From Mesodorylaimus sp. YZB2_4 (Eukaryota; Nematoda; Enoplea; Dorylaimida; Dorylaimidae): DNA of 64,000 nt. Below are positions 21,151-52,100 of the stretch, piece after piece. The notes under the pieces were generated by a model that was not told the origin of the DNA, searched no databases, and was given only the letters and a program-made list of their open reading frames with translations. The position numbers and the translations under genes were made by a program. Every line of letters starts with the position of its first letter. Positions within the stretch are counted from its first letter, which is position 1. The stretch is taken from assembly GCA_030248295.1 (NCBI GenBank), contig JASANH010001337.1, positions 62,001 through 126,000 of the forward strand, given 5' to 3'.

Positions 21151-21154
21151 AGCT

Positions 21155-21855
21155 TGTTACGACAGACTCGAAACTTTTAGACCAGCCAATGCACACGGTG
21201 GATAACAAGAGCTTACGATGGCTGTTCTACTCGGCCGCTACAACCACGGTCGATTGGGAAATCGTGGCCTGGTGGGTTAGGCGTCTGCCTCTCACGCCAG
21301 GTGCGCAGTTACGGGCGAGTGTTCGCCGGGCCAGTAAATCATTTCGTGTAAAATGTGTCCCTTCACCCTCGAGTGCGCATAAGCGTTTGGTCATGTGGTA
21401 AAAAATGAGCATGAACATGAGAACGTGAGCATGAGCTCTTTTTTCAAGAGTATCAGCAGCATGACTGATTGTGGGCAACGAGCAGACGGTTATTGAAATA
21501 TCCAGCTCCTGAGGTTTAGGCCATCTAATCGTAAGCCATGCCACTTTACTTGCAGCTGCGGGGCATCAATCTGGAGGCGAGAGTGGACCTGTGGCTAAAG
21601 CATACTCGGGTTGCTCTTGTGACACACCACAGCTGGTATCCTTTGGGGGGAGCCTGTATATACAGCAGCAGCACACAGGCAATGTGACTTTGGTGCTGAT
21701 ATTGGCAAGCATCTGTGTGCGAGTGATTACACATTGTGTCCAGTGCGAAGCTTGTGAGGCCTCTCTTTGTGCTGCCGGGTAGACCAGCCATTCTAAGCCC
21801 TAGTTGTCCACTGTGTGCTTTGGCTGGTCTAAAAGTTTCGAGTCTCTCATAACAG
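21155..21855. mobile_element. DNA element with about 45-bp inverted ends, carrying SINE-A
   Basis: The left end contains GACTCGAAACTTTTAGACCA at 21165 and the right end its reverse complement up to 21844. Similarity runs through ...GCCAATGCACACGGTGGA on one side and ...GCCAAAGCACACAGTGGA on the other, and outward into TTGTTA/CTGTTA. It is about 0.7 kb with no transposase frame. The SINE-A copy at 21258-21420 sits inside. Confidence 0.65.
21258..21420 (+). mobile_element. SINE-A, tRNA-like head and tail
   Basis: The head reads gtggcctggtgggttaggcg (A-box-like) and a decayed B box follows (gtgttcgccgg). The tail contains cctcgagtgcgcataagcg. It matches the copies at 18264-18350 and 44269-44440. 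Confidence 0.65.
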
Positions 21856-24417
21856 ACTGTTTTAAAAATAAGACTGCTTTTCGTTTTTGTTTCAAACTAG
21901 TTTCGACCAAAATGCCACAGGCTCATCCGTTTATCAGCTGAGAAAATTGGGTGACTACAGTGAGGGGAAATATAAGATCTAGTTCATGCGCCATGATAAT
22001 GATACCTGTTTCTAGTGTACATATTCTTGCTGCTACCTTTGCCCTGTTAGGCGTAAGTCAATATCGGGTACAAGTCATGCTGACTGGTTCCTTTGTTAGC
22101 TAGTGTTTTGTGGGTTGCACTGATAAGCTGATGCCGGTATTCTAGTTATTCGCATCTGTGTGCCTCGTAGGTGCAGTCGATTAAGCCATATTGATCCTTA
22201 TTTGTTGTGAGACATAACGTCTTACACTGCCATGAACCTTCTTCCAAACCTATGAAAAACAAAAACCTCCAACGGAACGTGAAACCTCACGCCTTGTCAG
22301 GTCCACCTAACTTAATGACTATTTCATAGTCAGAAACGCTCCTAGTGAAATGCACAGATCTTTTAAACGTGTAAATAGATACACAGGCGGAAGCGGGAAA
22401 ATTATTTCTTTCATGCTTCTATTATACCTAATACCTTATCTCTGATTGGGCAGCAAAATCAAAGACCACCCACATATTCCTTGCTCACAATAAAGTAGTG
22501 GAGTAGTGGATAGTCACAATAAAGTAATAAAGCCCTAGAAGAAAAACAAAAACGAAAAATTCTAATGGAGTGAAGTCGAACCAGGAGCCTCGCGGTTGCG
22601 AAACAAATAAGCTCGAAGTGACAGTTCCACGAAAGGGGGAGGATTATGCAAGGGTGCAAATGAACCCCTTTCCCAGAAAGCTTGTCAAAGTTCACCTATA
22701 CACACACATTTTGCTGTTGTGCCATCTCGCCATCTTATTATTATTAAACTCCTGAAATTTATATAAATTTTGACCTTTTTTAATGAGCGCTCCCTCCCCA
22801 CCTCGAGTCCTGCGCACGCCCTTGGGTAAGCCACTCTCTGCCGCGATTTACTCTGCTCTGCCAAAGAGATACTGATTTCGCAAAAAGGCGAGCAGACACA
22901 TTTAAAAAATGGACAATCTATCAAAGGCCTAGCTGATCTGAAAAAGACTAGGTCTTCTATTTCCTCAGAGCACTCCCTCCGGAGCTAAAACGACATACTC
23001 AGGTCCTTCAACTTTCATCAAGTCAATTTTGGATGTATATATATCAACAATGTAACTCCACATCAAATAAAACATGTCCTACCCATGGAAACGCTTTCTC
23101 CACATCTATTTGTATTTTTCCACATATTGGACTGACAAATTATTCTGGTATATTAAACCTATCTTTGTGAGAGCCCGCTTTCAGCCAATCAATGGCACCA
23201 GTAAATCCAGTGCCTGACGAGCGACAGATAAAAAAAGCCAAAAAAAGAGTATTTTCTAAATGACTTTTCGGAAATTGAAGCTTCAAAAAAAGAAAGCCAA
23301 ATGGTAGAGTTATGTGATTTGGTCCTTGTCCTCCGTATCCGCGCACGGATCACACAAAGCCCGGCTTACCTGTTATAAGAATTCATACGCGGGAGATTCA
23401 AATGAAGAACGTTCCAGAAACTGTGAAATGGCCTATTGATGCGTATCAGTATGCTGCACAATAGTAGATATAATCGTTCTCAAAGATAGAAAAGCACTAA
23501 ATGTTAACATTTGTTCAAAGAAAATGGTAGAAAAGAGGATAAAACATGCAAGACGCTGATTGAAATATATATATTTCATCAGGTATGCAAGAATGAGGCT
23601 GGAAAATATTGCTTTAAACTTAGCTTTAATTTTGCATGCCGTGTCGAATGTCCTTTTTTCTCGCGCACTACACAATTATCTATCTGGTGTTTAGCCGAAG
23701 CTGTCGATTCACGGCAGGAAACATTTTCTTGCTTATTTTCCGGGTAATTTTTTTTGATGCGTTGTCGATGTTCGCTCTTTTATTGCCACTTCTAATTGAG
23801 CACAAAGTCCCAGGTCTGATGTATATCTTTTTCTTAACAAGCCCCAATGCGCGCCCCGCAAGAGAATTCAGGAACATCTTTTTATATATTTTTTAATTCC
23901 AAGCCTGGGTGTGATCACTGTTGTAGCTTTTAGCATTTCTGAACACACGTATATGTCAGAAAAGATTGTAAAGATTGAATGAGTTTCTGGAAACTTCTTT
24001 CGAACCTCAGATAAATATACCTCATTGTCAAGCCATCTGAGATAAGACATTGATTGGAATTCACACCTTTTACTATTAGCCCCGAGTAAAAAGTGAAATC
24101 TGTGACGAAAATTTCTGCACCTAACGGACAAAAATTGACGCAAATGAAGACACACGAGACCTTTTTTGTGTTATTGGAGTGAATAAAATACAGTAATAAT
24201 CTTAGATATATGAGCGCTCTCTGTTACTGCCTGGTTATAAAGGCTGTAATCGTAGTAGCCAACATATTCCTCGAAAAAATATTATGCAAGATCAACAACT
24301 GGATTGCTATAGATCTTGATGATCAGCTTTTTAGAAGGGATTGATATAGTTGGTAGATCAAATGTCCGAATCGACGCATTTTTAGTATAACAATCTTCGC
24401 TCGGTCATGTTTTTTAG
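21856..24417. other. intergenic, repeats, no gene recognised
   Basis: Apart from the repeat at 23529-23644 I recognise nothing. The open frames at 23511-23896 are low-complexity hydrophobic translations of AT-rich DNA. Confidence 0.4.
23529..23644 (+). repeat. direct repeat downstream of GPCR 1
   Basis: The string from aaaagaggataaaacatgc through tcaggtatgcaagaatgagg to attttgcatgccg recurs with few changes at about 26468-26574, downstream of GPCR 2. It is either a relic of the tandem duplication block or a dispersed repeat. Confidence 0.6.
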
Positions 24418-24441
24418 GTCGAGCATCTGAAAAGTGTTATT

Positions 24442-25569
24442 ATGGCTTCTCCCAACGTATCGGCACTTCAATGGTTCAATTTTCAACCGTACCAAATTTC
24501 GATGGTCAATGAGTCTAATGAATATTGGCCGTGGCAACACCTTTCGAAATCAGATTGGCTCAGGATTTCCACCATTGTCCCCACAGTTAAATTAATTTTC
24601 GGACAGCTTAGTCATGTTGCTTATTTAGGTATCCCTCCACTGGGGGTCGTCGGATGCGCTCTGTGCCTAGCATCGCTCTGGCGCAAGGCTTTTATCAAGA
24701 AAGAGCGCTTTTACATTTGGATGTTTGTTATTTCAATTTTCGAACTAATATATAACATATTATTTTTATTTTACGCCCACGTCAGAGGAAATCTTTATCC
24801 AAATGTATACCAGCACAGTTATACAGGCATGCAATGTATGCTCTTCGTAAGCTGGGCTCTCTTTGCTTTGGACTTGGGAGTAGACTTATTGACGGTCATT
24901 GTAACTTTTGAAAGATATTTAACCCTGTGTTACCCTTCGAAAATTTTTTACAAAAGTGTCCACTTCACAATATTTGAGGTCATCTTGACACTAATTTTCG
25001 TTTTTTCAAGATGTTCTGTCTCTTTCATTTCTGATCAGATTACTGAAGTTTATTCTGTCAATAGTGGCAAAGTGTATGCTTTCGGACCAACTGATATTGC
25101 AAGAAATATAATTTTCCGGAACACATTTTATATTAGCTCTGTAATTGTAAGAATAATCTTACTTCTTGGCACCTTATTTTTTGCTTGCAGAATCGCTTTT
25201 CTTATAATCAAGAGACACCGCGCCCGCGTAAGCAATATTGTATCGTCGCAGCAGCAGCAGGCGGTCGAAAGACAATCTGCGGGAATGTTGAGACTCTTAG
25301 CGGTTCTTGTTTCTTTGTTTCTGTTTTCTCAACTCTTTCTAAGTCTTAATTTTATTTTTTATTTGATCAAGATGGGTGAAGAGAAACACATCGGGTTTGA
25401 TGCGGGTAAGGATGAAGTATATGGATATGCGAGGATGTCAATGCTCTCTGCAATTGATGTTTGGCTGACAACTCTGGCGGGACTGCTAACAAGAAGCGCT
25501 AACTTCTATCTATATTACACCTTCAGTGATACTTTCAAGAAGGAATTAAAACGATGTTTTCAAAATTAG
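24442..25569 (+). CDS. rhodopsin-like GPCR, tandem paralogue 2
   Basis: An intronless 375-aa receptor, aligned end to end without net gaps to paralogues 1 and 3. Landmarks are SALQWFNFQP near the N-terminus, IPPLGVVGCALCLASLW in TM1, ERYLTLCYPSK at the end of TM3, IIKRHRARV with a QQQQ run in loop 3, and LLTRSANFYLYYTF in TM7. It has ERY where the others have ERF. The TM3 start has a Cys (GMQCML) that paralogue 1 lacks, but I see no partner Cys in the second extracellular loop. The start ATG follows a 24-nt leader after an AG acceptor. A poly(A) signal candidate lies about 90 nt past the stop. Confidence 0.9.
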   Translation: MASPNVSALQWFNFQPYQISMVNESNEYWPWQHLSKSDWLRISTIVPTVKLIFGQLSHVAYLGIPPLGVVGCALCLASLWRKAFIKKERFYIWMFVISIFELIYNILFLFYAHVRGNLYPNVYQHSYTGMQCMLFVSWALFALDLGVDLLTVIVTFERYLTLCYPSKIFYKSVHFTIFEVILTLIFVFSRCSVSFISDQITEVYSVNSGKVYAFGPTDIARNIIFRNTFYISSVIVRIILLLGTLFFACRIAFLIIKRHRARVSNIVSSQQQQAVERQSAGMLRLLAVLVSLFLFSQLFLSLNFIFYLIKMGEEKHIGFDAGKDEVYGYARMSMLSAIDVWLTTLAGLLTRSANFYLYYTFSDTFKKELKRCFQN

Positions 25570-25658
25570 AGTAGGCAAGCAAATCAATATAGTTCACGAT
25601 AATCCGTTTTTGCGATTTTAGCGATTCAAAAATTTACATAAAAGTGAACTTATACAAT

Positions 25659-25664
25659 AATAAA
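25659..25664 (+). promoter_or_regulatory. candidate poly(A) signal of GPCR 2
   Basis: AATAAA about 90 nt after the stop at 25569, the first after the gene. Confidence 0.45.
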
Positions 25665-25669
25665 TGTAG

Positions 25670-26160
25670 ATATGCACCCACATACATATAAGTTTGTTTG
25701 TATGTACATATATACATACAATATGTACATTTGTCTTATAACCAGATGTTTATAAATACATACTTTCATTCATACATACATATACATCTACATATGCGAA
25801 TATACATACGTGTGCATATATATATTTATGTATATATATATATATGTATACCCGGGCTTGATCCCTGGTGATTTAGGTAGGGATATACGCATAATATATG
25901 TAATATAAAGACAGAAAATTTGTACATGTGTACAAATATCTATATATTTCTATATATTTCTATATATGAATATTTGTACATTTATTTATTATATATTCAT
26001 GTAATATATTAGTAAATAAATATAAATATATATAATGATATTTTTAAATAAAAAAAATTATATATTTTTTTATATTTTATATATATATAAATAACATATA
26101 CATATGTATATATTATATATATATATATACACACACAGACATACGTACATATGCACACAT
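25670..26160. repeat. TA/TACATA-rich low-complexity tract
   Basis: About 490 bp of alternating TA, TACATA and ATATAT runs with one short non-repeat island near 25850-25880. It probably grew by replication slippage. Confidence 0.8.
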
Positions 26161-26467
26161 TTTGTGTCTATATATCACATATATTATACGTATATCTGAA
26201 AACAGAAAAATCGCAACACAAAAAAGTTTTCAAGAGAGCAAAAAAACATATATTCACTCGTATCAAATTGGCATTTCAGAAATCTTTCCTCTGGGCTCGC
26301 AAAAAACCGGTTTTTGCTATTTTATATTCTATTTGCTTTTTATCTTATGAATCTTGTGGTATAATGCCCATTTGGGAATTGCTGATTGTGGATTTTTGGG
26401 GTGTTGACATTTGTGTTAAATTGCAACCTAAATGCTCTATTTTCTGTGTCAGTGGGAGTCTAGATGA

Positions 26468-26574
26468 TAAGAGAAAAGATGATTAAACATGCTTATTGAA
26501 ATATAATACATCAGGTATGCAAGAATGAGGCTGGAAAATATTGCTTCAAACTTAGCTTTGATTTTGTATGCCGC
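26468..26574 (+). repeat. direct repeat downstream of GPCR 2
   Basis: Second copy of the repeat at 23529-23644. It ends where SINE-B sequence begins (about 26577). Confidence 0.6.
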
Positions 26575-26576
26575 GC

Positions 26577-26760
26577 AGCATCATCATGGGATGTTGGTGC
26601 TGGAACAGGATGCCGTCGTGTGGAGGTGCTCCCAGTGGAGACACACAGGGAAGCGGCTATGACAGCTGGTCAACTCACGGCCTCGCTTACCATATCTTGA
26701 CTGCTGGCTGGCTGTTGGTTAAGCGGGTTGTAAGTGCTGTGGGACACGAAGGCGGCAAAA
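26577..26760 (+). mobile_element. SINE-B, 5'-truncated copy
   Basis: Contains ggatgttggtgctgg, gtgtggaggtgctcccagtg, gagacacacagggaagc and the tail near gggacacgaaggcggc. Matches 32262-32560 (+), 43660-44040 (-) and the split copy at 27190-28185 (-). Confidence 0.65.
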
Positions 26761-27303
26761 AATTAAGAAAAAAGGGCTGGAGGACGAAAATTCTTACTAG
26801 TTATCAGTCGTGTGTTCAACCCGCAGTTGAACAAATAAAACACAAATAAAATCGACTCACGCATTTGTCCGTTGCATATACTCATATATCACTTAGACTC
26901 TAGTAATCCCTCACATGAGCCTAGGGGGCCATCCATAAAGGTCGACCCCACAAAATCTCGATTTTTTGACCCCCTTCCCCACTAACCGCATGCCGACCAC
27001 TTCTCGCGAACCCCCCTCGAAAATGGTCGAGCACTTCAGCCATACCACCCTCTTTCCAAACGCTGTTTTGTGAAATGTTCCATCATGCTTTTTTGAGCTT
27101 GACAAGGTGTTCTCTCCTCCGAAAGCAAATCTTTTTTTTGATTCATTGAGCGGATTTCTATTTTGTAAAAACCCTCCACAAACTTTGCCCCATATTTTTA
27201 AAAGGTTTTGTGGGTTGGGCCCTCCGGCCCAGTTCTCCACGGGACTTTCAATCATATTAGCTGGGCAGCAGTCATGATATGATGAGCGAGGCTGTGAGGT
27301 GAC

Positions 27304-27737
27304 TAGAGACTGTACTGTAATTGAGGATCCCGATCCCGGTCCCGATCCTGACATTGAGGCATTGGGATTCTGATAATAACGGTAATTATGATATGCATGA
27401 GCATGGTACACTCTGATCCATCATATCCGCGATTAAACAGTAGCGATGAAGGGACAACAACAGCATCGGCTCAAATCGATAATGATAGCAACACTGATTT
27501 TACTTACTTGTTAGCCTAGGCAGACCTTGCTGCACGCACATCGAAAGTGCAAATGTACTCACCAATTTTAGCTTATTTTTAATGACTGAAAATCGACCTG
27601 AAAAAAAGCTTAAAAAACCTGAATGACTAAAGTGAGGAAAATAGACTCATCTCCTGCGTGCGTGCAAGCAATGTCCGACCTTAAACAAAAAAAACCTGAT
27701 CCCGATCCTGGAAAAAGGTGATCCCGACCTATCCCTA
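27304..27737. mobile_element. small hAT-like element with 8-bp target duplication
   Basis: GAGGTGAC at 27296-27303 is repeated exactly at 27738-27745. Between them lies a 434-bp insert starting TAGAGA and ending TCCCTA, the TAG...CTA form of hAT ends. Subterminal GATCCCGATCC motifs lie near both ends. Taking the insert and one duplicate out restores a continuous SINE-B body. Confidence 0.75.
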
Positions 27738-27931
27738 GAGGTGACCAGCCCTTACGGCAGTTTCCTTGTGTTTTCACTGGGAGCACCTCCACACGAGGAC
27801 ATACTGGGTGAGAGGGGGCTAAGGCAGCTTAGGGACCTTTCCAACTGGTGTTCGAGGACAGTTCCCAATTCTTTGCTCCTTGGGTGGTCGTCCGCCATTT
27901 TACAGTAGCTGCGGTGTCGCCCAGAGCCAGG

Positions 27932-28054
27932 GGCCAGTTTCACAATCGCCTAGGACATGTCCTAAATTTTACGACACCGTAAGTCCTATCTTACATCATT
28001 GCGGTTTGATCGTCCTAACTTTAGGACATGTCCCAGCTGATTGTGAAAGTGGCC
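27932..28054. mobile_element. 123-bp MITE inside SINE-B
   Basis: The inverted ends read GGCCAGTTTCACAATCGCC on the left and, reverse-complemented, GGCCACTTTCACAATCAGC on the right, with similarity running about 35 bp to GGACATGTCCTAAA. CCAGG flanks both sides (27927-27931 and 28055-28059) and fits a 5-bp target duplication. The undisrupted SINE-B at 43660-44040 has one copy of this string. Confidence 0.75.
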
Positions 28055-28741
28055 CCAGGTGTCTAAAAGCCAGCGACGAGCTACTAAACTGCCGTCCTCC
28101 GTCGGAATAGAACCCCGGCCTCCCAGTCAGGGTTGCGGGCCAGCAACGCGGATCAACGCCTTAACCAGCTGAGCCATCGCCTTTCAACTTTTCCCTTTCG
28201 GATCAGATGCCATTCCAGTTAGGAATAAGAGTCTTGATAAACCCGAAATTGCATTCTTTAGAATGAACGACCAAGGAGAAGAGAAGGCAAAAAGTTTTGA
28301 AGGCTTGAGAGCGCACTACTGGTGAAGATAAAAGGTGTTTTTTGTCATCAAAGTTGAAAATGCTGACCATTGGCCGCTACACCTCCCCCTCCCCCCGACC
28401 GCACCTGACCACTTTTTGCTACCCCCCTCCCACCCTAGGCTGCGGTCGACCTTTATGGATGGCCCCCAGAATGCAATCTCAGAGAGGGCTGAAGGTAAGA
28501 GTGAAGGGAGAGGCGCGGAAATAATTATGGCCGGCATACGAAAGACAAAAGCCATGAAATAATAACTTCGTCATGATCACTATGTTAATAAATCTATTTA
28601 CAAATGATAATGTCAACTGAAGCTTGAAAGTCAATTATTTAGTTTTACTCAAGCATCCTCGATTTTGCGGGGTAAACATATTTTCCTACCCAACGCAGGC
28701 TAGAAAGGCTTGCTGCCGGAAATCCCATTTCACTCGAAGTA

Positions 28742-29002
28742 TTGACGATAAAATTGGAAAAATGTTTCTCTATTCTTACAAATAATTACAATATACATGA
28801 TGACTTTTCGATAAAAAACTATGAGCCCACAAGTATTTATGCTCTGAAAAGTCTTTTCTCTGAAAAAATTCCAGAAAATCTTTCCGCTTTCGTTTTCTCT
28901 GAATTCTGCGATATCGATCTATTTCTTTTCCTCCTTGGGATCAATGAAAAAAGTGTTGCTTTTAGGTTGCTGAGAAATGTTTTTATAATTGGCATCGTGT
29001 AG
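28742..29002 (+). other. 86-codon open frame, not recognised
   Basis: Starts MTIKLEKCFSILTNN, AT-rich, with no motif. It lies in the spacer before GPCR 3. It is probably chance, although its length is above the local average. Confidence 0.1.
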
Positions 29003-29312
29003 CTAGAACAGTCCCAGAAAACAAAAATTGTACACTATTTGTAGCTATGAAATTCGATCGAACACATGAGACTCTCATCTGACGTCGTTAGGAAGAAAAT
29101 CGTGTTGTAGACTCCGAGATGCAGGATGAGCCGCAATCATTAGTGCATCAAAATAAGAAAGCCTAGGCTTCTTTTGTAGTCTAAATCCTACACACGGTCA
29201 GCCCTTTTCTCGTTATCTCAAAAGCGAATGGGATGGTCAGCAGATCCAATGTCCCACTCGATGACTGCTGAGCATGGTTTGTTTTTAGGTCGACCATCCG
29301 GAAAGTGCAATC

Positions 29313-30440
29313 ATGGTTTCTCCAAACGTATCAGCTCTTCAATGGTTCAAATTGCAACCAGGCGATATTTTGATGATGAATGACTCGGACAGCTGCTGGC
29401 CATGGCGGCACGTTTCGAAATCAGATTGGCTGTGGATTTCCACCACGATCCCTAAAGTTAAAAGAATTTTTGCCCAGCTGAGTCATGTTGGATATTTAGG
29501 CATCCCACCACTCGGAGTCGTCGGATGCATTCTCTGCCTAGCCTCGCTTCGGCGTAAGGCATTTGTCGAAAAAGAGCGTTTTTACGTTTGGATGTTTGTC
29601 ATTTCAGTTTTTGAGCTTTTTTATAACCTTTTGTTTCTATTCTACGCCCACACAAGGGGAGATCTCTACCCGAATTCGTACCAGCACAGTTATAAGGGCA
29701 TGCAGGCCATGCTTTGTATAAACTGGGTTCTATACGCCTTGGACTTGGGGGTAGACTTATTCATTGCCTTTCTAACCTTTGAAAGATTTGTAGCTCTTTG
29801 CTACCCTTCCAGAATTTTCTATGAAAGTAAACGGTTCACAATATTCGAGGCCACATCGACACTAATTGTTGTGTTCTTAAGATGCGCAGAGTCTTTGATT
29901 TCAAGGCGTCTTGTCGAAGTTCGAAATGGCATGGGTGACAAAGTGTATGCTATCGGGTCTACAAATTTTGCACAGAGTCCATCTTACCGATACTCCTATT
30001 ACATCATCACAATCCTAGTTAGATCGATCCTGTTTTTATCCTCTTTTTATTTTTCTTCGAGAATCGCCCTTGTTATTATCAAACGACGCCGCGCTCGTGT
30101 CCAAAACAGTGCATTACCACAGCAGCAGCAGGCCATTGGAGAGCAATCTGCGTGCATTCTCAAGCTTCTGGGGGTTCTAGTTTTCTTGTTTTTATGTTCT
30201 CAGCTCTCTATCATAATTTTTTATATTTTATGGCTTCTAAACATGGTGAAAGAGAAAGAGATCCAATTTGATAGCTCTAAGGATGAGATATATGGATATG
30301 CAGCAATGTCAATGTCTTGTACCATTGACGTCTGGCTGACCACCTTGGCTGGTCTCTTAACAAGGAGTGCAAACTTTTATCTTTATTACTTTTTTAGTGC
30401 TACATTCAGAAAAGAGGTGAAACATTTATTCGGTAAGTAG
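29313..30440 (+). CDS. rhodopsin-like GPCR, tandem paralogue 3
   Basis: An intronless 375-aa receptor of the same family. It has SALQWFKLQP, IPPLGVVGCILCLASL (TM1), ERFVALCYPSR at the end of TM3, IIKRRRARV with a QQQQ run in loop 3, and LLTRSANFYLYYFF in TM7. By eye it is closer to paralogue 1 than to 2 (ERF, NSALPQQQQA against NSASPQQQQA). The TM3 start has Cys (QAMLCINW), again without an obvious partner in the second extracellular loop. It follows a 24-nt leader after an AG acceptor at 29287-29288, nearly the same as that of paralogue 2. Confidence 0.9.
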   Translation: MVSPNVSALQWFKLQPGDILMMNDSDSCWPWRHVSKSDWLWISTTIPKVKRIFAQLSHVGYLGIPPLGVVGCILCLASLRRKAFVEKERFYVWMFVISVFELFYNLLFLFYAHTRGDLYPNSYQHSYKGMQAMLCINWVLYALDLGVDLFIAFLTFERFVALCYPSRIFYESKRFTIFEATSTLIVVFLRCAESLISRRLVEVRNGMGDKVYAIGSTNFAQSPSYRYSYYIITILVRSILFLSSFYFSSRIALVIIKRRRARVQNSALPQQQQAIGEQSACILKLLGVLVFLFLCSQLSIIIFYILWLLNMVKEKEIQFDSSKDEIYGYAAMSMSCTIDVWLTTLAGLLTRSANFYLYYFFSATFRKEVKHLFGK

Positions 30441-33054: not shown

Positions 33055-34582
33055 GATGCAACTAGCGTTGATACAGTTTTGGGAAAAAGATTCAGTTTCA
33101 GTTACAGCTAACTGGATCTCAAAAGATTCAGTCAATGTATTTTAACTGAATGATTCAATTTTTCCTTAAAAAGCATTTCGCATCTAGATGTGAACACTTG
33201 ACGAGAACAATCTCCACTTTCCTTCATTTAAATAACTACTCTTCCGCATTCAAGACTTTAAACAGCTCACAAGGCGCAGTAAAGACCAAAGTCAACACCG
33301 AAGGGTCCTTTTAAGAGCACAGCGATGCACGACCATGTCTCAACAGTCCATCCACCAACAAATCCGAAGACAGACCAAGTACCTGAACCTTGTAGCCGTT
33401 TTATTTTTAATGCCATAACTCATGATTGTAATTTCTTTTGGTCCGAAAGAAAGCTCTGCGCAAAATATTTAGCTTGTTTGGGCAACTACTCAGCAGAGGT
33501 CAACGGCCGAAGTCCTGCAAATTTTTGGATCTTCGCAAGTCCGCTTCATCGGGTCTTTTTTGCAAAAAAATTCAGAACCAGAAGCCTAGAGGACGGAACC
33601 AAAGCCCATAACCTGAACAGCGGGTTCAGAAGAGCCCTGCGAGAGTTTCTTGACTTTCTGTCGCCTCGCAACACACGAGTTTAAAAGACCCGCAAGATTT
33701 TAGGAGCTGACTATCAGACCACTTGTCTTATAGGAGAGATTTACTACTCAACCGCACCGAACACGCACAGGCATGAACACTGATTAGTCAGACGAGCATC
33801 GACCCAAGGGCAAAAGTGCACCGGCACAAAACAAACAAATAACACACATCAGACAAGGGGAGACCGGTTCCTAACACAGCAATCACTAGATATCACCAGA
33901 CAGGCCTAATATCGATCGAGGTCATATTCATTTGCATATCCTGATCTTCATTCCCCCTTACATGACCGCAGCTGACCAGCTGGCCATTAGGGCAAAATAT
34001 TTTCAGATAGCTTTCTTCCACACCAGGAAATTGGGAAATATCGACTAAGCATGTCAAGTTCAACTTACTGGTTGCCAAAGCTTGGTAAAATCAAGAAGAT
34101 GTAACTTTAAAATGTATGTAATAAAATGATTGAAAAGGAGAAACCCTACTGTAGTTACTTTTATTTTATTTTAATTATACCGACCGACTTTGACCTCGCC
34201 TAGCTTATAACTTCTTTCACACAGCGCTAGCCTGCAGGAAATGATCAAGCACTACAATATTCGTGAAGATTTTGCAACTTCTCTACATTTGGACCACAAT
34301 TCGAATGGATCGACTTTTTCACTAGCGTTCTAAGGATAACAAAATACACCCCCAACTCGCGATTAAGATGATTCGAGCCAGCAATTCGTCTAGCTTCGTT
34401 TTGTTTCTCTCTGAGGTCTGCACGAACATCCGCAAACAGATTACTAATTTTCACAAGCGTAGTAACTCGAAAACTGAATTTAACTGATTCTAAAAAGATT
34501 CAGTTACAGTTAAATTCAGTTTTGGCCAGGAGATTCAGTTCTAGTTTAAGTTTTAGTTAACTGTAACAACGCTAGATGCAAC
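33055..34582. mobile_element. 1.5-kb hAT-type element with perfect 8-bp target duplication
   Basis: GATGCAAC occurs immediately outside both ends (33055-33062 and 34575-34582). The element itself spans 33063-34574. Its ends are TAGCGTTGATACAGTT and, reverse-complemented, TAGCGTTGTTACAGTT, one mismatch in 16. Subterminal AGATTCAGTT-like motifs are repeated on both sides. A TAG-initial inverted end and an 8-bp duplication are hallmarks of the hAT superfamily. The longest internal frame (33325-33684) shows no transposase motif, so the copy is probably non-autonomous. The near-identical ends and exact duplication suggest a fairly recent insertion. Confidence 0.85.
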
Positions 34583-34884: not shown

Positions 34885-34890
34885 TTTATT
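34885..34890 (-). promoter_or_regulatory. candidate poly(A) signal of deacetylase
   Basis: TTTATT on the plus strand (AATAAA on the minus strand) about 110 nt past the deacetylase stop. Confidence 0.45.
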
Positions 34891-35000: not shown

Positions 35001-35744
35001 CTATTTTTCTCTTGTGGGAAGAGAAACGGTAACACTTTTCGTCTCTTCGCAATCATTCTTGTACACCTTGTCCTTCTCGATTCCCAGGCACGTGGTCATG
35101 TCGACAATTTTGTACCCGTGTTGACGAATGAGTTCGATTATTGATTTTTGGTAGGGCACGCTGGCATTCGACAAATCGTGTTGCAGGGAAATCCAAGAGG
35201 TTGAATCTTTCGATGCATTCCGTAAATTCGAGTTAAACTCCTCATAAATTAGTTCTGGTTGACTGCTTTTGTGCTTCCAGTCCCACGAATCCAAATTCCA
35301 CAGCACGATAGTGAACCCGAGCTCGGTCAGTATCGAAGTGACATTCTCGTTCAGTCTTCCATATGGAGGCCGCATCAGGGCTGGTTTTTTTCCCGTCATA
35401 TTGAAAATTTTCTCTTCCGTTTTTTGCATTTCCTCCTGTATTTCTTCTCGTGACAAATTGGTCAGTCGAGGATGTGAAAAAGTGTGGGAGCCGATGGTGT
35501 GTCCTTCCTTTAGTATCCTTTTCAGGGTTTGGTGATTATTCGGGCGATCAATGTATTCCCCCACCACAAAGAATGTGGCCACAGTGTTCGTATCATTCAA
35601 TATATCCAAGTACTTGTTGGTGTGCTGGGAGGGACCATCGTCGAACGTCAGGGCAAAGTGCCCATTTCTCACACATTTTCTAACAATATTTGCAGAGGTG
35701 GCCAGAATTAGGCAGAATACGATCAACTGATGGCTTGGTTCCAT
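35001..35744 (-). CDS. intronless chitin/polysaccharide deacetylase (CE4, NodB fold)
   Basis: Reading from the ATG at 35744 gives a 247-aa protein. The frame is open 42 codons further upstream, but this Met starts a good signal peptide (EPSHQLIVFCLILATSANI). All CE4 motifs are present: TFDDGP (33-38, catalytic base and metal Asp), GSHTFSHP (85-92, metal His 87 and 91), RPPYG (125-129), DSWDW (152-156) and ISLQHD (185-190, with the conserved His-Asp). The enzyme should be secreted and remove acetyl groups from chitin or a related polysaccharide. Typical animal chitin deacetylases are longer, multi-exon and carry CBM14 or LDLa domains; this one is a bare catalytic domain. GHFALTFDDGPS and the end GYKIVDMTTCLGI recall fungal and some microbial CE4 enzymes. 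No intron occurs, unlike most neighbours. It could be a horizontally acquired gene, a retrocopy or a divergent native gene. Confidence 0.9.
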   Translation of the reverse strand: MEPSHQLIVFCLILATSANIVRKCVRNGHFALTFDDGPSQHTNKYLDILNDTNTVATFFVVGEYIDRPNNHQTLKRILKEGHTIGSHTFSHPRLTNLSREEIQEEMQKTEEKIFNMTGKKPALMRPPYGRLNENVTSILTELGFTIVLWNLDSWDWKHKSSQPELIYEEFNSNLRNASKDSTSWISLQHDLSNASVPYQKSIIELIRQHGYKIVDMTTCLGIEKDKVYKNDCEETKSVTVSLPTREK

Positions 35745-35870: not shown

Positions 35871-38123
35871 ATGGGAAAACTGACTTCTACACTGTGAGCT
35901 GTTTTACATTGTATGCGCTGCTTCGTGTTTTTATCACGTCAGCAGCAAAGAGTGTTGTGCAATGTGTGCATGAGGAAGCAGAGTATGACAACAGTTCGGC
36001 TAACGATGACAAAAAGCCAACAAATTTGCGAGGGAGTGTTGTAGCTAGCTCACAACATGACGGCAGAAATCAACACCAACATGAGTTAATGGCATAATAA
36101 AGTCCAAAATGCCTAGTGTCACTTGATCCGTAGGAACCTTGTACCTTTCAGCTTGCGAGATCAATATCGAGCCTATTTGCGGATTCTTTTGCGGAAAGAA
36201 TACTTTGTCTGGGATATTTCTCTGGGACTGCTTTGAAGGATGTTGCAACGTTAGCCACTGCGAGTCGCCTGAGATTCTTGGGGTGATGCTGGCCATTGGG
36301 GGAGTTGCTAGGGAGTATAGGGGCAGACTCCTAGGAATATGGGGTTCTTTCTTGCTCTCTCTCGATTCGAATCCAGCCAGTTCTTCTGAAATCCTAGAAG
36401 AGCTGACCTTCGAGTTTGTTGATTTCATTTAGCAGACCTGTGTGGGCATAGCGCCAGCCAAGGACTTTGATGTGTACTGACAGGGGCCTTTTCAGACTTG
36501 TCGTTGCATTCGGCTCATATTGGAAGAGTCCAGAAGTCGACTCCAGGGCAGTCGCTAAAGTTTCTGTGCGGAAGTTTGTGTGGATATCGGCATGCATCAA
36601 TGAACTTAATGGATGCTCTGATGCTGACTGGTCGTCAATGAGCCGTCGACAGTGGAAGTGGTCGCCAGCATGGTCATGTTGGGACGCGGTGCATTTGATC
36701 AGCTGTCAGGCTATATGAGATCATCACACAGTTGCTGCTTCTGCTAAGAAGACGGTTGCTGGCACTCCAACTTCAGTCCAGACAGGCATGGTATAATTGC
36801 CAGAGGAGTTTGTTTGAAAATCAAGGTTTTTGCTGACTGATTCTCTGCAGGACGAGCTGCTGTACCAAGATGAGGCCTCTTGTCCTTGCGCATCTCGCTT
36901 GATCGAATCAGCGGTGGCGTGTAACCCCGCCTAGTAGGCGCGTGGGAGAGAGTAATCGATACTCTCCCCTGGCTGGGAGACGTGAACCCCTCGGGTTGAT
37001 GTTTCACCCGTAGGTATGATCGCAAGACTTGACTGTTCTATAACGATTCAGAAAATACTGCGCGCTATAGATGAAAAACAAAAACAAACTAGAAATTTTT
37101 AATCCGTTAATGACTTTTTGTGCTGTTAGAATTTGTGCAGCTAGAGCACCGTTGAGTACCAAATATACCTCGGATTGCCGCTGTGAAATGTGCATATCAA
37201 TGCTCTAATTCGCGCTCAATGAACAAACTCCACTGTTTTTGCCGACCAAAACTTTTACTTTCCCACGAGCGTCGCTAAATCAGTTTTCGGTATGTTACAT
37301 CTTCGTCTTATTGCTCAGTGCATGAACAAGCGGACAAAGAGGACATGCAGTTACAGAGGGCGTGCAGTGCCGATGATGTGTGTTGTGGATGCTATTGGCG
37401 GTGCGAAAAATCACTTTGACGAACGTTTTCAAAATTTCGGAGAAGCTCTGACGATCGATTCTTGCGGCCTATGACGCGCTGCCGATGCCTGCATTATAAC
37501 ACTTCCACTACTGCAGTAGCAGGCATAGCATACGAAAGTCATGCACATCCTGCCATGCTGATACACTGTACAGCCCTCGTCCTCTAACGTTGAACCATAT
37601 GTTCTGCTAGACTGATAAGGGATTTATGAGTTCTGGTAAGTCTCACTTGACAGAAACAATTTTACAGTTGCTCATTCTAGGAAATCAGTAAGTTCTGCAT
37701 GGTTTAGGTTGGCTGGAAACCATAGCAGCCCTGACGCACCCCTGACTACTTTCGTAATGCTTGGTAAGAGACGACAGCGACAGCGCGCGTGTTTCTTTGT
37801 GTTCCACGACCATGTTTCGCGTTAATTGAATAATGTACAGCCAATGACGACGATCCTGATTCTGTGGCAAAAACGGAGCACCAGGTGCAATTGTGGAATG
37901 AAATAACCCTTATGACAGATTAGCGTCTTGTTTAAATCAAGTCTACATGGATCGTGCTTGGCTTGGTAAGAAACCAAGCATGCTACGGTAGCTGCCAAGA
38001 ATCAAAGCGAGACATACCCTCTCAAAATCAAAGTGGCAGGTCCCGCCTATGAGAATTGGCACCTCAATTAGCAGTGGCAGTTCAGCCGATGAGAACATCG
38101 TCTATCGAAAATCTGTCCCAGTC
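35871..38123. other. intergenic, no gene recognised
   Basis: Several open frames of 60-127 codons occur (for example 36045-36428 on the minus strand), none with a recognisable motif. The GC-rich part near 36840-37010 may be repeat-derived. Confidence 0.4.
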
Positions 38124-43110: not shown

Positions 43111-46100
43111 ATGGCTCAATCGTCGTCGAGAGTATCGCGTGGGAAAAAGAATATCCGACGTATTATTAATGTAGTTTGGGCAGTCAAGCGATTCAGCCGA
43201 CGAAGATCACGCGTTGTGGACTCAAATATCACACTTGTAGAAAGTTTTCGTAAACAATCGGCTAGGAGATTTTCAATTGGTTTGACAATGGGCAAGCAAA
43301 TATGCACATTCGAAGAGAGCCCATTCTATGTTCACAAGGTAAGTGGGGCCTCAGTGCCAGTTTTTTTTCGATGTTTACTCAATCAGTTTCATCCTCAAAA
43401 TCCGGGAAAAAGTACAAGTAATCCCGCTAGTTAATTAGTGAGTAGCCCGGGGGGGGGGGGGGGAAGAGAGTATAGGGTTATGTATTACTAATCGTAAGTG
43501 TCATTATAATTGCGCGCGCGGAAGATCTTTTGCGATCTGGAGCCAACGCGACTTCTTTTCGTACCTGGAGCAGGGTAATGTGTAAAACAATATCGTTAAT
43601 TTTTCATTGCGCTCGTACAGTTTTTTGATGGGCCAGTTTGCTTGAAGTTTTTTGTTTAAATTTTTGTGGGTTGGGCCCCGTGCCGCCCCAGTTCCCCACG
43701 GGACTTCCGATCCGGTTTGGCCAAAGCCGGCCAGCAGTTATGATACGGTAAGCTAGACGGCAGCTTTCCTGTGTGTCTCCTCCAGGAGCACCTGGACCCG
43801 AGGGCATCCTGTGCCAACACCAGCATCGCAGGATGATACTGGGGAGAAGGAAGGGACCTACCCGATTGGTGTTGACCAGTTCCCTGACTCTTTACTCGTT
43901 CGGCGTCCGCCACTCGACAGTACCTGGCGAGTCGCCCGGAGCCAGGGGTGCAAGGCCAGTGACGGGCTTACTAAATTGCCGTCCCCAGCCGGAGCTGAAG
44001 TGCGGCCTCCTGGTCAAGGTTGCTGACCCAAGCAATTTGGGACAGATTTCCTTAAAGTGCCCCCTTTTCTTGGGGAATGTACACGCGGCCTATGCGGTAA
44101 CGTGGAGGGCGTGTATATTCTCAAAGAAAACAGGTTATATGCTGCAGCAATAGGTAAATTATGGAGCAAGTTACTAAAAATTTTTGCTGCGTTAGTTCTG
44201 CTCCGATTGTTAATCGAAAACTACGCATTGTTGTCACTTTGGATCAGTTAGTATTGTTGAATTCAGAAGGCCGGGGTCGTGGCCTGGCGGGTCAAGGCGT
44301 CTGCCGCTCACGCTGGGTGCGCTCTTACGGGAGGGTTCGACTCCTGCCTCGGTAAAAAAAATGATTGTCAGTCTGCGTGTTCCTGCCTTCGAGTGCGCAG
44401 TATGTTGCAGCTATGGATAAAGTATGACATGACACAGACCGCTTAGTATATGAAGAGTGACCAAAGAGTGACGTGCCTTGCAGCTCAGAGTCGACTGTAC
44501 AGCCGTACTGCCTTACTGGGGTGGTACAGTGAGGTATGGGTACGACGCTCAAAGTACCGACCGTACCGACTTTTATTATGATTTGCGTGATAATTTGATG
44601 TTGAGGTAAACTTTTTTGCTTCATAGGGGCCAGTTAGACGTATTTAAATTTTCAAACAGTCTGAAAGCCCTCGCTCAGTATCAAAAAACCTTTCGAAAAA
44701 ATCTGCTGAAATAAAATTTTTGGTTGTTACGAGTGCAGTACGGTACGGGGCACCAGGCCGCAGGGATGGGCGCATGGTCGACCCTGGCTTGCAGCATGGA
44801 ATTCCACGAGAGACGGCTAGTCGAGTAAACTGCCCCGTTCGTGATGTGTCTGTGCATCGTTGAATGCACATATCTGTGTTTAGTGATGTGCTAGCGCATG
44901 GACATGAGCACGCGAGGCATTACTAGGTGGTCTATTATAGCAAACCACCTGCAGCAGGGTCACGCATCCTGGAAGTATTTCTAATTACTTTCGACAGTTC
45001 ACAATCAGACTTGGTGACGAGCCAGCGTTAGCACCGGCCCTGCTGACGTGACTATTCACAGATTATTTCGTGACTTTTCTCTGAAAAGGCCTTAATTACA
45101 TGGGTGTATAATAATAAATGTGTCACGAAAAGGCTATTATTTTAGGCATGCGCTCAGGGGCTGATGACGGTTGTCGAAAAACTAATTCTTCAAGATCCTA
45201 CGAGAGTCGTGCTCAAGGACAAATCTGGCTTGACTTGTTTACATCACGCGGTGGCCAGAAATAGATTCGCGATTATCGATTTCTTGCTGAGAAGTGGAGC
45301 TGGTAAGCCGAAGAAACATGAATTGTGCAAAAAGCACAAAAAATTCGCTGTATTTCTATCAAATCAACAGACAAGTATCACTTGCAATAATAACATAGTT
45401 GTGCTGACTGACCGTATATGCTGTTCTAGATATCGATGCTCAGACGCTTGAAGGAAACACAGCGCTGCACCTAGCCGTGGAAAAAGGACGAGCCGATACA
45501 GCGCGTCATTTGCTGATAGCAGGAGCCGCGGGCAATATCATCAATGAAGCGAAGCTGGCGCCGATTCATCTGGCATCGTCATTGGGGAACAAGGAAGTGG
45601 TTGCGGTAAGCTGTGTTAGAACAGCAGGAATGCCAGCAGATAGTGTTAGAGCGCACGATGGATTAAAGGAGACACATGTCCTCCTCGTTGACATATCTTT
45701 TATAAGCGCACATAATGGAAAGGTCAACATAGGTCCTTCTACTTCCTAGCAAAATGTGCTCCTCGTTGGAATCGCCATTAAATTTTAGTCAGCATTTTTC
45801 TGGGCCTCAAAGAGTGCGAAATTCCGCCATGACCTGACTGTGCTAGTTAAGTAGATAAAGAATCTTTCACTCAAAAGCCAGTGCTAGTTGTATTAAAAGA
45901 CAAATTTTCATTTCCCTGATATTTTTCTTGGCTTATGACTTTAATTTATCGCCTTTTAAAAAAGTTGTTGCTCTTGCGCTTGCATGAAAACCCTCGCGCA
46001 CATGTTTTCGAGGTGAAGCTTTTTATTTCATGAGGTTTCTCATTTACTATATGTAAAATTTTCCTTAGCAGCTCACCGAAGGAGTTACTGACTGAAAGAG

Positions 46101-49100
46101 TGCACTTAATCATAACTTGAGATGACGGCACAGATTGGCTCTAATAAATTTTTAATATTTTAGGAGTTATGCTATTTTAAAGACCTAGTTGACGTGAATT
46201 TAAAAGGATTTCGCGGACAGCTTGCTTTGCATTTTGCAGCCATTGGTGATAAGTCGGAAGCCGCCGAAGTACTGGTAAGGGGATGCTCATAAAATAGCAT
46301 TCGTTCTGGATAAGGATTTTCAGAATGCTTTTTTGACTTTTTATTAGCTGTAAGTGACTCACAATCCACCCTGAGTAGCCCGCAAATATACAGCCGAAAC
46401 TCAATTCCCTTGAATAATTTTTAGTACAATATTTACATCATTGCATTCAAAATCAGGCAAACAAAAAAAGGAGGATCAGTTCGGAATTAGCAAAAAAATC
46501 CATTCTTTCCTCTTAATTAGTTCAATCATTCCCTTAAGTTTCTCCAGGTTGCCCTTCTGAAACATTCCCTTCTCTCCTCTTCCCCCTCGCCACAACATTC
46601 AACCCCATCATTTTTTCTTGGGATCAGGCCCGGAATCCCGAACGAACGCTATCATAGAAGTTACAATGAGGCCTGAGAATTTTTTTCATAACCGTGGCAC
46701 AAATATTTGAATTTAGTTAAAGGCCGGCTGCAAGTTAGATGTGCCATCCGAAAATGGATTTTATCCAATTCATCTCGCCGCTAAATGTGGTTCAGTCAAA
46801 ACCTTGCAGTTATTTTTACAAATTGATTATTTTCCATGTAAGTTTGCTTTTTTGCCTTTCTTCCAAAAGAATCGAAATTACCAATGTCTGCCGACAAATC
46901 ATGTCTGGGTTCATCGATTCGAGTAGCTGCTAGCAAATAAAAGAGTTTACTGCACTCTAAAATTCATTTTTTTGTCTCATCCCAATTGCGATCACACCCG
47001 ACATGCTGACGCCTCCTCTGGATTTCTTTTTTAAGGGGGAACTTTAGGCTGGACGACTGAGCAGCTACTGCATCAGACTGACAAAGAAAAGAATAACGCA
47101 CTGCACATGGCTGTGAATAGTGGCAACTTACAAGTAAGTGTTTTTGTAACAAAACTTTATTTCTGTAAAATGTTTTCCATGTTATAGTCAGTATCAATTT
47201 GTTTGAAATTTGGTGCTGCAGTCGACACACGACAAGAAGATTTTTCCACGCCTTTGCATTTAGCATGTGCGCAGGGCTCACTGCCCATCGTGAAAGTATT
47301 GTATGAGACACACGTTCAACGTGTCGGCGAGGACGAGGCTTGCATTGTCTTGGAAACAAAGGACGTGCTCGACATGAGCTTATTGCACAGGGCGGCCATG
47401 TTCGATCACCCAGAAGTCGTGCAGTATTTACTGGAACAGGTGATCACATGCCAATTCACTTTTTGCACGCACAAGAATCTGATCTAGTCACTTGTTCTAA
47501 GAAACTTCGAGGGGGAACAACAAAGCGTTTCTCTTAGCACCTGGTGCTATGGGCGTGATAAAGTTAGGTTCGAGGTACTAGGGGACCTAATCAACATTAC
47601 CGGCGGTCAGGAGATGGAAACTCTCCCATGCATAGGGGACGTAAACTACTCCACTTGATGTCTCAGCGGCAGGTATACTTGAAGTTTTTTGACCGGAGAC
47701 TTCGCGATCTCGTACAACCCGTCGCTTGCGTGAGCTAGTTACACACGGCCATAGCGAGGAGGGGCGAAACAGGATTGTGGAGGGGACAACTGTTGGGTAC
47801 CGCCCCTGCACTAAGTAGCGCGCTGGAATGAGGAGTGAGCTGTCCAAAGGCACCCAACTACATTCCTATTCTGCAAATACCATGCTTTCTGAAGTTATAC
47901 CAAGAGGGTCGACCCTCACGGAAAGCCTTAAAAACCTATGACGCAAGGCGAGAAGCAAATTGAGTGTCCGTTTGTGTCAACCAAAAGGCAACGAACCCAA
48001 TTTTAGAAAGCAGACATAGAAGCTACGGACCAAGAAAAGCGCACTCCACTCCTGCTAGCCGTGGCATGCAGCGGATTTCGGGCATTCCGTATGCTTCTGA
48101 TTAATGGAGCCAACATGTCGGCAGTGGACAGAAATAAAAGAAATGTTTTGCATTATCTTGTTGGAAGAGCGTATCTTAGCGCTTTCTCGCAAGATGAATT
48201 TCATGATTTGTGTCAGGTAAGAGCCAAAGTCACTTTGTCAGGAAACCCAACTCAAAATCCCCATCGAAAATGGGCTTACTTTTTTGGACCCAAATAGCCT
48301 GAGACATTGGTAAGAAACAATGCCTGTTTTCTAAAGTCACAAATCTCGATTATCTTTCAAGTATAGAACTTTTTGTTTCGACAAGCTAGCTCTACTTTTA
48401 AAGTATCAGAAGCATTTTCAGACAGAAGATGGAAAAAAGCTGTTAAACCAGAAAGACGCATTTGGATGCACGCCTTTGCATTTGGCAGCCAAAGAAGGCA
48501 CTGTTCGATGCATCGATGCATTCCTGCCCTTGGGCGCCAATGTGCATTTGAAAGATCTTGAAGATCGATGCGCGTTGCATTTTGCGGCAAGGTAATTTAT
48601 TGTGTTGGTATCCATTTTCCTGTTTCATTTTCACACTCGAACCTGACAGATGCAGTTTTCCGCTGAGGGTGACTTTTGTCGGGGTTGGTAGTCCAGGTTC
48701 GGTCGAGATTTTCCCTAAAATATCTTATTCTGTGATATGTCCCTGCAAGTTAAACTAGATTTCCATACTTTCCTGACTGTATTATCAAGAGACAGTAAAT
48801 CGTGAGGTTACGTAGAGAAGAGCTCTGTCTGTCTGTCTGAACTCCTCTGTCTAAAACTATGAACTCTGTTTGAAAAAGATTTTTACGTTAAAGAAATTGA
48901 CAAATATTATGTTTTTTTTTCTAAGCGGAATCAAAAAAAGTTTTTAGCAGTAAGTTTTGGAAGCATTGTGGCGTGCAGGCATTAGAGTAGGTACAGTATA
49001 ATAAAGTACTTGGTCAGCGTTCGACCAGAAGGTAGTTTTGTCGCGGACAGACTCTGGGACGTTTTCCTGTCCTCGTCCCAATGGTGCGCGCTTTCGCAGA

Positions 49101-52100
49101 GTGTCTGTAAGCAGGCTTAGACCTTGAAACATATAATACTGCAGGATACTATTCTTTGTCCGCACCTCCCGCAGTACGAATAAGAGAAATCTCACGATAT
49201 TTTTTGAAGCGTTATCTAAAAAATCTTTTCCGCAGGCACGGGCGATACAACGTAGTAAAACAATTGCTTGAAAACACCGGTGCGATGAACATACTTAACG
49301 AAACTGACGGTCAGGGTATGACAGCATTGCACATCGCGAGTATGAGTGGCCATACCAGAGTCGTGCAGTTGCTATTGTACAAAGGCGCCCTTTTACACAA
49401 GTAAACCAGCATTTTCTCAAGATATGCTATATGAACTAAAAGACTACAAATTGAAAAAATGTATATTTTAAATTCCTCTCTTCAGGGATTACGTGGGTCG
49501 AAGCCCGTTGCACTTGGCTGCGCAGAATGACTTTGTCAAAACGATGGAATTGTTGTTGTCTTTTCATCACAACCTTTTGGATCAGAGGGACAGAAATGGA
49601 GTAAGACCCCCACTGCCCTCAAACAGTTCAACATGATGAATGCCCGCTGCATTTCAGAACACTGCACTGCATTACGCTGTGCAAGCCAATCGCACGCGGC
49701 CAACCGACCTGCTTTTGAGCACTGGATGCGTCTACTCGATCAACGACGATTTCGAGACGCCGATGGACATCGCCTTGCAGAGTCAGCATTTCGAAGTGGC
49801 CTTGATCATGGTCAAGCATAGAAGGTACCTTCTGTATTGCATTGTGCATCAGATTTTTCAACTTCTCTGTTTCTTCTCATTTAGATGGACAGAAATCCTG
49901 GACTATCGAGGAGCCGAGGCATTCATGGGCTTGATTAGGCATCTGCCTCAAATATGTCATGTAAGACAAATTAACGAAAATCTGTTTTGTTGAAGAAGCA
50001 GTCCTAGTTTAGGTAGTTTTGGACCGTTGCCGAACGTGTGCATTTGTTGATAACCAGTCACTTAACTACTGGGTAAGTGCTGCTTTGCATTTCACACGCA
50101 CAACTGTCCAACCAGGTCAAAATAACCAGTTCTGTCACAGTTCTAAGGTTTCATTTCACAGGAAAAATATAACTTTCGCTATTTGCAACGTGGAATCCTC
50201 AACAATGTTACAAACGAAGAGAATACGTTGGAGGAAAGATCAAGCAAACAAAGGCCAAAACAACCACTCGAGGCCTTAAATGTGAGGTTGGATGAAAAAT
50301 AGGGGATTTTTATGGTAAGGGAAAAATTTTCTAGCTCATGGTCGCGCATCAACGGGTTGACTTGCTGGCGCATCCTGTATCATCGAGTTATTTGCGAATG
50401 AAATGGTAAGTTGGCGACATCTCCTACTTTGAGTTCAGAATGCACAGTAATCTTCTTTGTGGCCTCTCTGCCCGCACATGAAGTCGGGCGTCCAACTACT
50501 TGGTCAACGTGTTTTCGATATCCCTGTGCGAGTTTCGTCTCGTCCACTCACTTTCGCACAGGACAACGACGAGATGGATCATTGTGCTATAAAGTACTGT
50601 AGCGACACACGCGGGAAATTTGAAAGTTTATGATTGCAAAAACTATTTATCCTTTATGCCTTGCGATTAAAACATGTGCACATGTACCGCGCATGAGACT
50701 CGCGGTTTCGAGTGCTGTCCAAAAAAGATAGCCTGCAAAGCTCTCGAATGTTTTTGTGACATACAAGGGAAATTAGTGAACATCTTACCCGTACATCCCA
50801 TCATTACCGTGATGCGATTGCTACGACTTGCCAAAACACTTTTGACTTCCCTGAGTAGTTTATTGTTTAGAAGCTTCTCTAGAAGCACGTACATGAGCCA
50901 GATTTTAGTTTCATCTTAAAAATATTCAAGCACATTTGGCTCGGAAAATCTTTTGCAGTTTCTGTCAGGATTAGGAGAGCCCATGCATGAGTAAAAAGCC
51001 CCATGCAGAGCCTGCCAGTGAATAAATCGAACACGTTTTCATCTTCTAGGCGTGCCTACGGGTGTTGGATATTCTCAGCTCAGATTATCTTATATTCCTT
51101 ATTTGTCGCCAGTTTCACCGCCGCTGTTTGGACTCTAGGCGACAAAAAAGTGAGAACTATTTTGGTAACAATGACAAAGTCGCAGGATGTCATCGCCAAC
51201 TCCACAGCCACGGACCCTGATGTGCAGCCGATGGAACAAGCACTGGTGAGTAGAGTGGGCGTGAAGCATTTAGTAACAAATCGGTCAGTAGAAACGAAAC
51301 TTTTAGGAAATAACGTCGCTTTACTTCTTATTGCACTCGATTGTTTTCGCTATGATTATGCTGAATGTCGTGAAGGAGTTCGTTCAAATGTACCAACAGG
51401 TAGGTTCCCTCTCGCCACATGAAAAAATATGTGCATGATCTCTTACTGAATTGAAATTAAATTGGATTGCATCAAGTTCGAGATGCAACCATGGTATGCT
51501 AATGTAGGAAATGAAAATTGGAGGGTATGGAAGACAGCATTTATGCAATTACCATACATGGGTTTTGCCTAAATTTACAAAAACAAGAATATTGACACAC
51601 AAGTATATAAATTTGAGTAAATTAAACAAATCTCAAAGCTTGTATAAAGGTTTAAATTTCCTGCGTGCGTCGTTATAGCATTCTATACCACGTTAGCCCT
51701 GTGTGAAAACAACACAACCGAAAAATCGCGCAGCAAAGGACAGCAGGAACATATTTAAATTTGCTATAAAGGATCACGAAGAATTACTGTGGCACACTTT
51801 TTTCTAATTTTTTGAACTCTGCGAATGGTATTTGCCACGGCTTCAATAAATCCGCATTCATCTTGCGAATTCAATATAATAAGCTTTTTTAGAAAATACT
51901 TTATTTCGCTGACGGCGTCAACTACTTAGAGTGGAGTTTGTATATTTCTGGCTCGATAACCGTCTGCAACACGCTATTCGGAACCTCCATTCATTCACTA
52001 TCCTGGCAGTGCGGGTCAATATCAATCTTTCTGTCCTGGTTCAATTTACTCATTCATTTGCAAAGGTATGTTGGCTGTTTCAACTAAAGTTCCATCAAGA

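Follow-up and report, generated by a model that had tools for sequence, protein, structure and literature searches.

A single-exon, microbe-type CE4 deacetylase gene resident in a nematode genome, probably derived from an old horizontal transfer

Structure of the gene and its product

In the 64,000-nucleotide stretch of DNA analysed here (referred to as the window), a CE4 polysaccharide (chitin-type) deacetylase gene was found on the reverse strand at positions 35001-35744. The ATG...TAG frame was a single exon encoding 247 amino acids with no internal stops, and its ATG was the first one inside a stop-to-stop frame of 300 amino acids. In a Pfam scan of the protein, Polysacc_deac_1 (PF01522) was matched at residues 25-146 with an E value of 5.7e-39 (133.3 bits; cut-off, 23.1), and the matches to Glyco_hydro_57 (5.1e-6) and DUF2334 (0.076, below its own cut-off) overlapped with this region. 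No Pfam family beyond these three, and no accessory CBM14, LDLa, or EB module, was detected in the protein up to an E value of 1. Twelve NCBIfam families also matched, none of which reached its cut-off.

The motifs of CE4 enzymes have been defined as TFDD, H(S/T)xxH, RxPY, DxxD(W/Y), and LxHD (PMC5855634), and all five were fitted by the protein, in the following reverse-strand positions: TFDD as motif 1 (residues 33-36, assigned from the sequence and alignment; 35637-35648), HTFSH as motif 2, containing the metal-binding histidines by homology (residues 87-91; 35472-35486), RPPY as motif 3 (residues 125-128; 35361-35372), DSWDW as motif 4 (residues 152-156; 35277-35291), and LQHD as motif 5 (residues 187-190; 35175-35186). 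An AlphaFold2 model (mean pLDDT, 86.4; pTM, 0.83) was obtained from 55 sequences, and its alignment contained prokaryotic relatives only (54 of the 80 prokaryotic rows described below). On the basis of the motifs, the profile match over the cut-off, and the predicted CE4 fold, the protein is a CE4 carbohydrate esterase. The frame, the Pfam scan, and the motifs therefore agree with the initial annotation, which had described a complete one-exon CE4 domain with all catalytic motifs and no accessory domain. The AATAAA claimed downstream was also present: this polyadenylation-like signal (34885-34890, reverse strand) starts 113 bases downstream of the stop codon, counted from its first base. As for the signal peptide claimed together with them, the hydrophobic N-terminal run LIVFCLILATSA (approximately residues 1-20; 35685-35744, reverse strand) looks like one by eye, and residues 4-16 in this region had pLDDT values of less than 50 in the model.

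Six N-glycosylation sequons were present in the protein, compared with a mean of 1.76 in the 80 prokaryotic rows (shuffle P, 0.013). Since the domains of four fungal chitin deacetylases (CDAs) contain only 0-1, this excess says little about the origin of the gene.

Host genome and neighbourhood

The assembly holding the gene consists of 1067 contigs (145 Mb), and the gene is located on a 271-kb contig. Among 40 candidates scored in the assembly, 27 matched TTR-52 (PF01060), which we regard as a nematode-specific family; therefore, the host is taken to be a nematode. The SL1 spliced leader was not found in the assembly with up to one mismatch, which presumably fits Enoplea, and the host 18S appears, in our judgement, dorylaimid-like. 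A full-length 18S was located on contig C791, and divergent 18S-like copies were found on C162 (L010, with an internal insert) and C352 (L011, shortened). A six-frame search of the host genome gave no match to GH12 cellulase, which is the foreign enzyme known from Xiphinema and Longidorus (PMC5664137).

Dispersed repeats of the host were found on both sides of the gene. On the side of the stop codon, one piece of a repeat (33600-33711, forward strand) occurred in at least 38 other places; the query began at 33600, and the repeat may extend further. A larger piece of the same repeat (33963-34575, forward strand) occurred in at least 39 other places with 83-87% identity, and ends approximately 425 bases from the stop codon. 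These two pieces are split by approximately 251 bases (33712-33962), and are adjacent in many of the other places listed. On the opposite side, a short repeat (36919-37038, forward strand), with at least 42 other places, lies approximately 1.2 kb upstream of the ATG.

Animal-type genes flank the CE4 gene on both sides of the contig. When ten neighbouring frames were scanned by Pfam, serpin was matched by two of them, and trypsin, ankyrin repeats, and 7tm_1 by one each, the last of these slightly below the cut-off; the other five had no match. The GC3 of the gene (0.53) was within the range of eight host coding stretches (0.40-0.63). A codon log-odds score failed to distinguish genes from random stretches and was set aside.

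Several features of the neighbours were also observed. Three similar GPCR-like genes are arranged in tandem at 18747-30440, each as one open frame of 376 codons (including the stop) from the first ATG. Two of them were scanned: one gave the 7tm_1 match just under the cut-off, and the other had no match. An in-frame TAG (14492-14494) occurs within a serpin-like frame, and reading continues in the same frame on either side. Ankyrin-repeat-like frames at 45146-50000 and 61498-63468, for which the Pfam match comes from the frame at 49111 only, contain near-identical pieces, such as 47188-47487 and 63187-63468, and resemble tandem duplicates.

The gene occurs only once in the assembly, where no paralogue of the same CE4 type was detected in the host; both observations would fit contaminant DNA or a chimeric contig, fungal or bacterial, as the source. 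In spite of this, such a source is very improbable because of the host-wide repeats on both sides, the host-like GC3, and the animal-type neighbours on both sides of a contig of this length. The gene is physically resident in the host nematode genome, with repeats lying approximately 425 bases from its stop codon on one side and approximately 1.2 kb from its ATG on the other. The initial annotation had the gene flanked by animal genes and SINEs, and animal-type genes and host repeats were found on both sides. The description of the locus as intron-rich held only in part: the locus is an animal one, but the three GPCR-like neighbours (18.7-30.4 kb) are intronless too.

Significance of the absence of introns and modules

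The same annotation had read the intronless and module-free structure as a sign of foreign origin. Both features are present, but each is weak as evidence. Approximately 14% of the genes of Trichinella spiralis are single-exon, and introns were no reliable guide to the origin of nematode cyanases, according to the consulted portion of PMC9079694; together with the intronless GPCR-like neighbours, these statements make the absence of introns weak evidence of transfer. Nor is a missing module in itself a sign of foreign origin, since insect group 5 CDAs are also without accessory domains (PMC3396651, in the portion consulted). It is sequence similarity and the tree with animal rows, rather than the missing module, that mark the gene as foreign.

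Distinction from animal-type chitin deacetylases

Two animal-type CDAs (C32 and C237) were found in the host assembly, each as a pair of matches, the two being 405 bases apart in C32 and 709 bases apart in C237. One match in each contained an internal stop, as is the case when a match runs into an intron. EB-module frames at L012:4234-4626 (reverse strand) and L013:1140-1448 (forward strand), just upstream of these two genes, may belong to them. In a six-frame search of the host genome with PF01522, the only match was at the microbe-type gene; however, the best score of this profile on the split exons of the animal-type CDAs was 16.4 bits (cut-off, 23.1). Since the profile hardly sees these exons, the single match does not count the animal-type CDAs.

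A tree of 38 rows included four animal CDAs (two from silkworm and two from the host; C. elegans C54G7.3/lgx-1 and F48E3.8 were left out). The initial annotation had named nesting within animal CDA groups as the result that would speak against a foreign origin, and this was not found: the animal rows formed a clade at 100/100 that excluded the microbe-type protein. The similarity to one host CDA, represented by an approximate joined translation, was only 26 bits over 97 columns. Furthermore, the insect CDA structures (5zns and 5z34) were absent among the 46 PDB sequences matched at an E value of 0.01, which we take to be bacterial, fungal, or microsporidian CE4s. On the other hand, a tree constrained to unite the protein and the animals in one clade was not rejected (p-AU, 0.439). 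The branch of the animals is long, and the protein may be linked at their stem.

This last result bears on another explanation, in which an old eukaryotic CE4 was inherited vertically, surviving in a few animal lineages and disappearing from the majority, or came from an unsampled protist. The long terminal branch of the protein (1.25 to 2.12 across the four trees of this study) is also in line with it, as is the appearance of Entamoeba polysaccharide deacetylases (PDAs) in the tree of PMC3396651. However, the animal-type CDAs of the host form a separate and distant clade with those of insects, the nematode PDAs in the consulted portion of PMC3396651 are homologues of C54G7.3/F48E3.8 and nearer to insect groups 1-4, and no compact microbe-type nematode PDA is mentioned in that portion of this nematode survey. 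We consider retention by descent, or a protist source, to be improbable. Because the animal CDA clade excludes the protein and the gene resides in the host, it represents a CE4 of microbial type within the genome of an animal, probably, and most simply, through old horizontal transfer.

Relationship to fungal and bacterial enzymes

The fungal sample comprised four PDB chains (2iw0, 2y8u, 7bly, and 8hfa) and one sequence of yeast CDA1; the fungal chain 8he1 and microsporidian 2vyo were left out of all trees. The prokaryotic rows (30-41% identity) were the best 80 of at least 583 relative-encoding stretches (593 examined) from a scan of GTDB contigs with alignment A1, and one of them (L061) was from an archaeon. 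Seventy-nine of these rows were used in an 86-row tree (L070 was dropped), and a hand-picked set of 29 in the smaller ones. A GTDB contig scan with the protein alone yielded 37 stretches, none of which was confirmed as a close prokaryotic relative.

The protein was the sister of the four fungal CDAs in the 86-row tree (81/92) and in a 34-row tree (94/82). The support for this position decreased to 60/28 when the C-terminal columns were removed, and in the 38-row tree with animals the protein was placed at the base of bacteria (89/38), without recovery of the fungal sisterhood. Thus, fungi were the sister group in three of the four trees, and the support was never starred. Yeast CDA1 (36% identity over 190 columns to the protein) had a long branch apart from the other fungi in the 86-row tree.

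A signature consisting of an N-terminal Cys and a C-terminal Cys-Leu-Gly, defined in this analysis from the four fungal rows, was present in the protein. The C-terminal element, Cys219-Leu-Gly (35082-35090, reverse strand), was found in all four fungal rows, whereas Cys219 was found in none of the 80 prokaryotic rows (the best 80 of at least 583), and a Cys within three columns in only three of them. The N-terminal Cys (C24) was found in four of the four fungal and 20 of these 80 prokaryotic rows. Using Foldseek, the first match of the model was the Colletotrichum CDA (2iw0; E value, 3.0e-21; TM, 0.82), followed by the Bacillus cereus deacetylase (4l1g; 6.1e-20).

Pairwise identity, in contrast, was highest with bacterial ArCE4A (41%, versus 31-34% for the fungal rows), and in the PDB sequence search ArCE4A again ranked first (3e-35; A. 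niger, 1.7e-33). Motif 4 was DSWDW in the protein, DTKDY in three of the four fungal rows, and DTNDW in the remaining one. Among matching plasmid records (378), the best identity in the 20 listed was 38.2%. The identities to ArCE4A, the listed plasmid records, and the 80 prokaryotic rows, the absence of introns, and the position at the base of bacteria once animals were included may be explained by a bacterial donor of a PgdA- or ArCE4A-like CE4, in which case the C-terminal Cys-Leu-Gly would be convergent. The distribution of Cys219 and of nearby Cys residues, the fungal sister position in three trees (if never starred), the fungal CDA as the first fold match, and the failure of all 12 NCBIfam families to reach their cut-offs argue against such a donor, and we regard it as rather unlikely.

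Viral sequences were also considered. With alignment A1, 24 of 49 IMG/VR stretches encoded relatives with 25-45% identity (the value of 45% spans residues 31-121 only). Matching phage records numbered 26, with up to 36.8% identity among the 20 listed, and 19 fold matches in BFVD at an E value of 0.001 or better had 8-19% identity. A viral source was set aside. With the protein alone, none of seven IMG/VR stretches was confirmed; with the alignment, the best E value in IMG/VR (8e-35) was weaker than that of the best prokaryotic locus (4e-41).

These results give a fungal or fungus-like donor about an even chance or slightly better; a fungal donor is favoured, but unproven. The proposal in the initial annotation of horizontal gain from a fungus or microbe is therefore sustained in its general form by the non-animal type of the CE4, its residence in a nematode, and the host-like GC3, whereas the fungal part is weakened by the loss of tree support without the C-terminal columns or with animals.

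Proposed origin and physiological role

We consider it reasonably probable that a microbe-type CE4 gene entered the genome of an ancestor of this nematode and was kept as a secreted enzyme, with a fungus or fungus-like eukaryote being a likelier donor than a bacterium. The protein would enter the secretory pathway, and Cys24 and Cys219 may form a disulfide. By homology with CE4s in the consulted portion of PMC5855634, Asp36, His87, and His91 would bind a divalent metal, while Asp35 and His189 would act as the base and acid, respectively. Acetyl groups would be removed from the GlcNAc units of chitin or chito-oligomers, the presumed substrate in view of its relatives, and the putative role, as far as the sequence indicates, is that of a secreted, metal-dependent deacetylase of these compounds. 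In C. elegans, PDAs are located in the pharynx and remove acetyl groups from chitin in vitro (PMC3396651, in the portion consulted), and by this analogy the pharynx or gut is a fair guess for the site, where the enzyme might work beside the two animal-type CDAs; its target might be dietary fungal chitin or the worm's own chitinous lining, both with low confidence. A GH46 chitosanase, a candidate partner enzyme, was not found in the host, with one control genome positive, and this counts against the proposal. More tentatively, an early-branching nematode could have taken a fungal CDA and now secrete it as a second, independent system of chitin deacetylation beside the animal-type enzymes, against fungal food or fungal enemies, or for chitin-based recognition; we regard this fuller reading as possible rather than likely.

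Carbohydrate enzymes of foreign origin are well known in nematodes, and plant parasites have been studied best. Among the listed titles and abstract openings of open-licence PMC papers, none reported a nematode chitin deacetylase of microbial type, and the word "deacetylase" was absent from the main texts of PMC9079694, PMC4521475, and PMC5664137, the last of which deals with Xiphinema and Longidorus. Should the donor be established and expression demonstrated, chitin modification would join the acquired functions of nematodes, here in a genome negative for GH12 by six-frame search. The gene is a genuine, well-integrated microbe-type CE4 of a nematode, probably acquired horizontally long ago.

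Comparison with known systems

The fungal CDAs (ClCDA, 2iw0; AnCDA, 2y8u; AngCDA, 7bly; VdPDA1, 8hfa) resemble the protein in their compact single CE4 domain, the five motifs, both parts of the Cys signature, and the first fold match, but differ in their identity of 31-34%, in motif 4 (DTKDY in three of four), and in having 0-1 sequons against its six. Bacterial CE4s (ArCE4A, 5lfz; Bc1960, 4l1g; PgdA) are similar in the fold, the motifs including the RPPYG and DxxDW forms, and, for ArCE4A, the identity of 41%; they differ in that Cys219 is missing in all 80 prokaryotic relatives (the best 80 of at least 583) and that no NCBIfam cut-off is reached. Animal CDAs (BmCDA1, 5zns; BmCDA8, 5z34; C. 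elegans C54G7.3/lgx-1 and F48E3.8; host C32 and C237) share the CE4 superfamily and the presumed substrate; the four tested rows, however, are a separate clade (100/100), those of the host are split into exons with EB-module exons nearby, and the insect structures do not match the protein at an E value of 0.01. The horizontally acquired cyanase of Trichinella, as described in the consulted portion of PMC9079694, differs in the type of enzyme and its plant-like source, but is likewise a single-exon gene for a foreign enzyme in an early-branching nematode.
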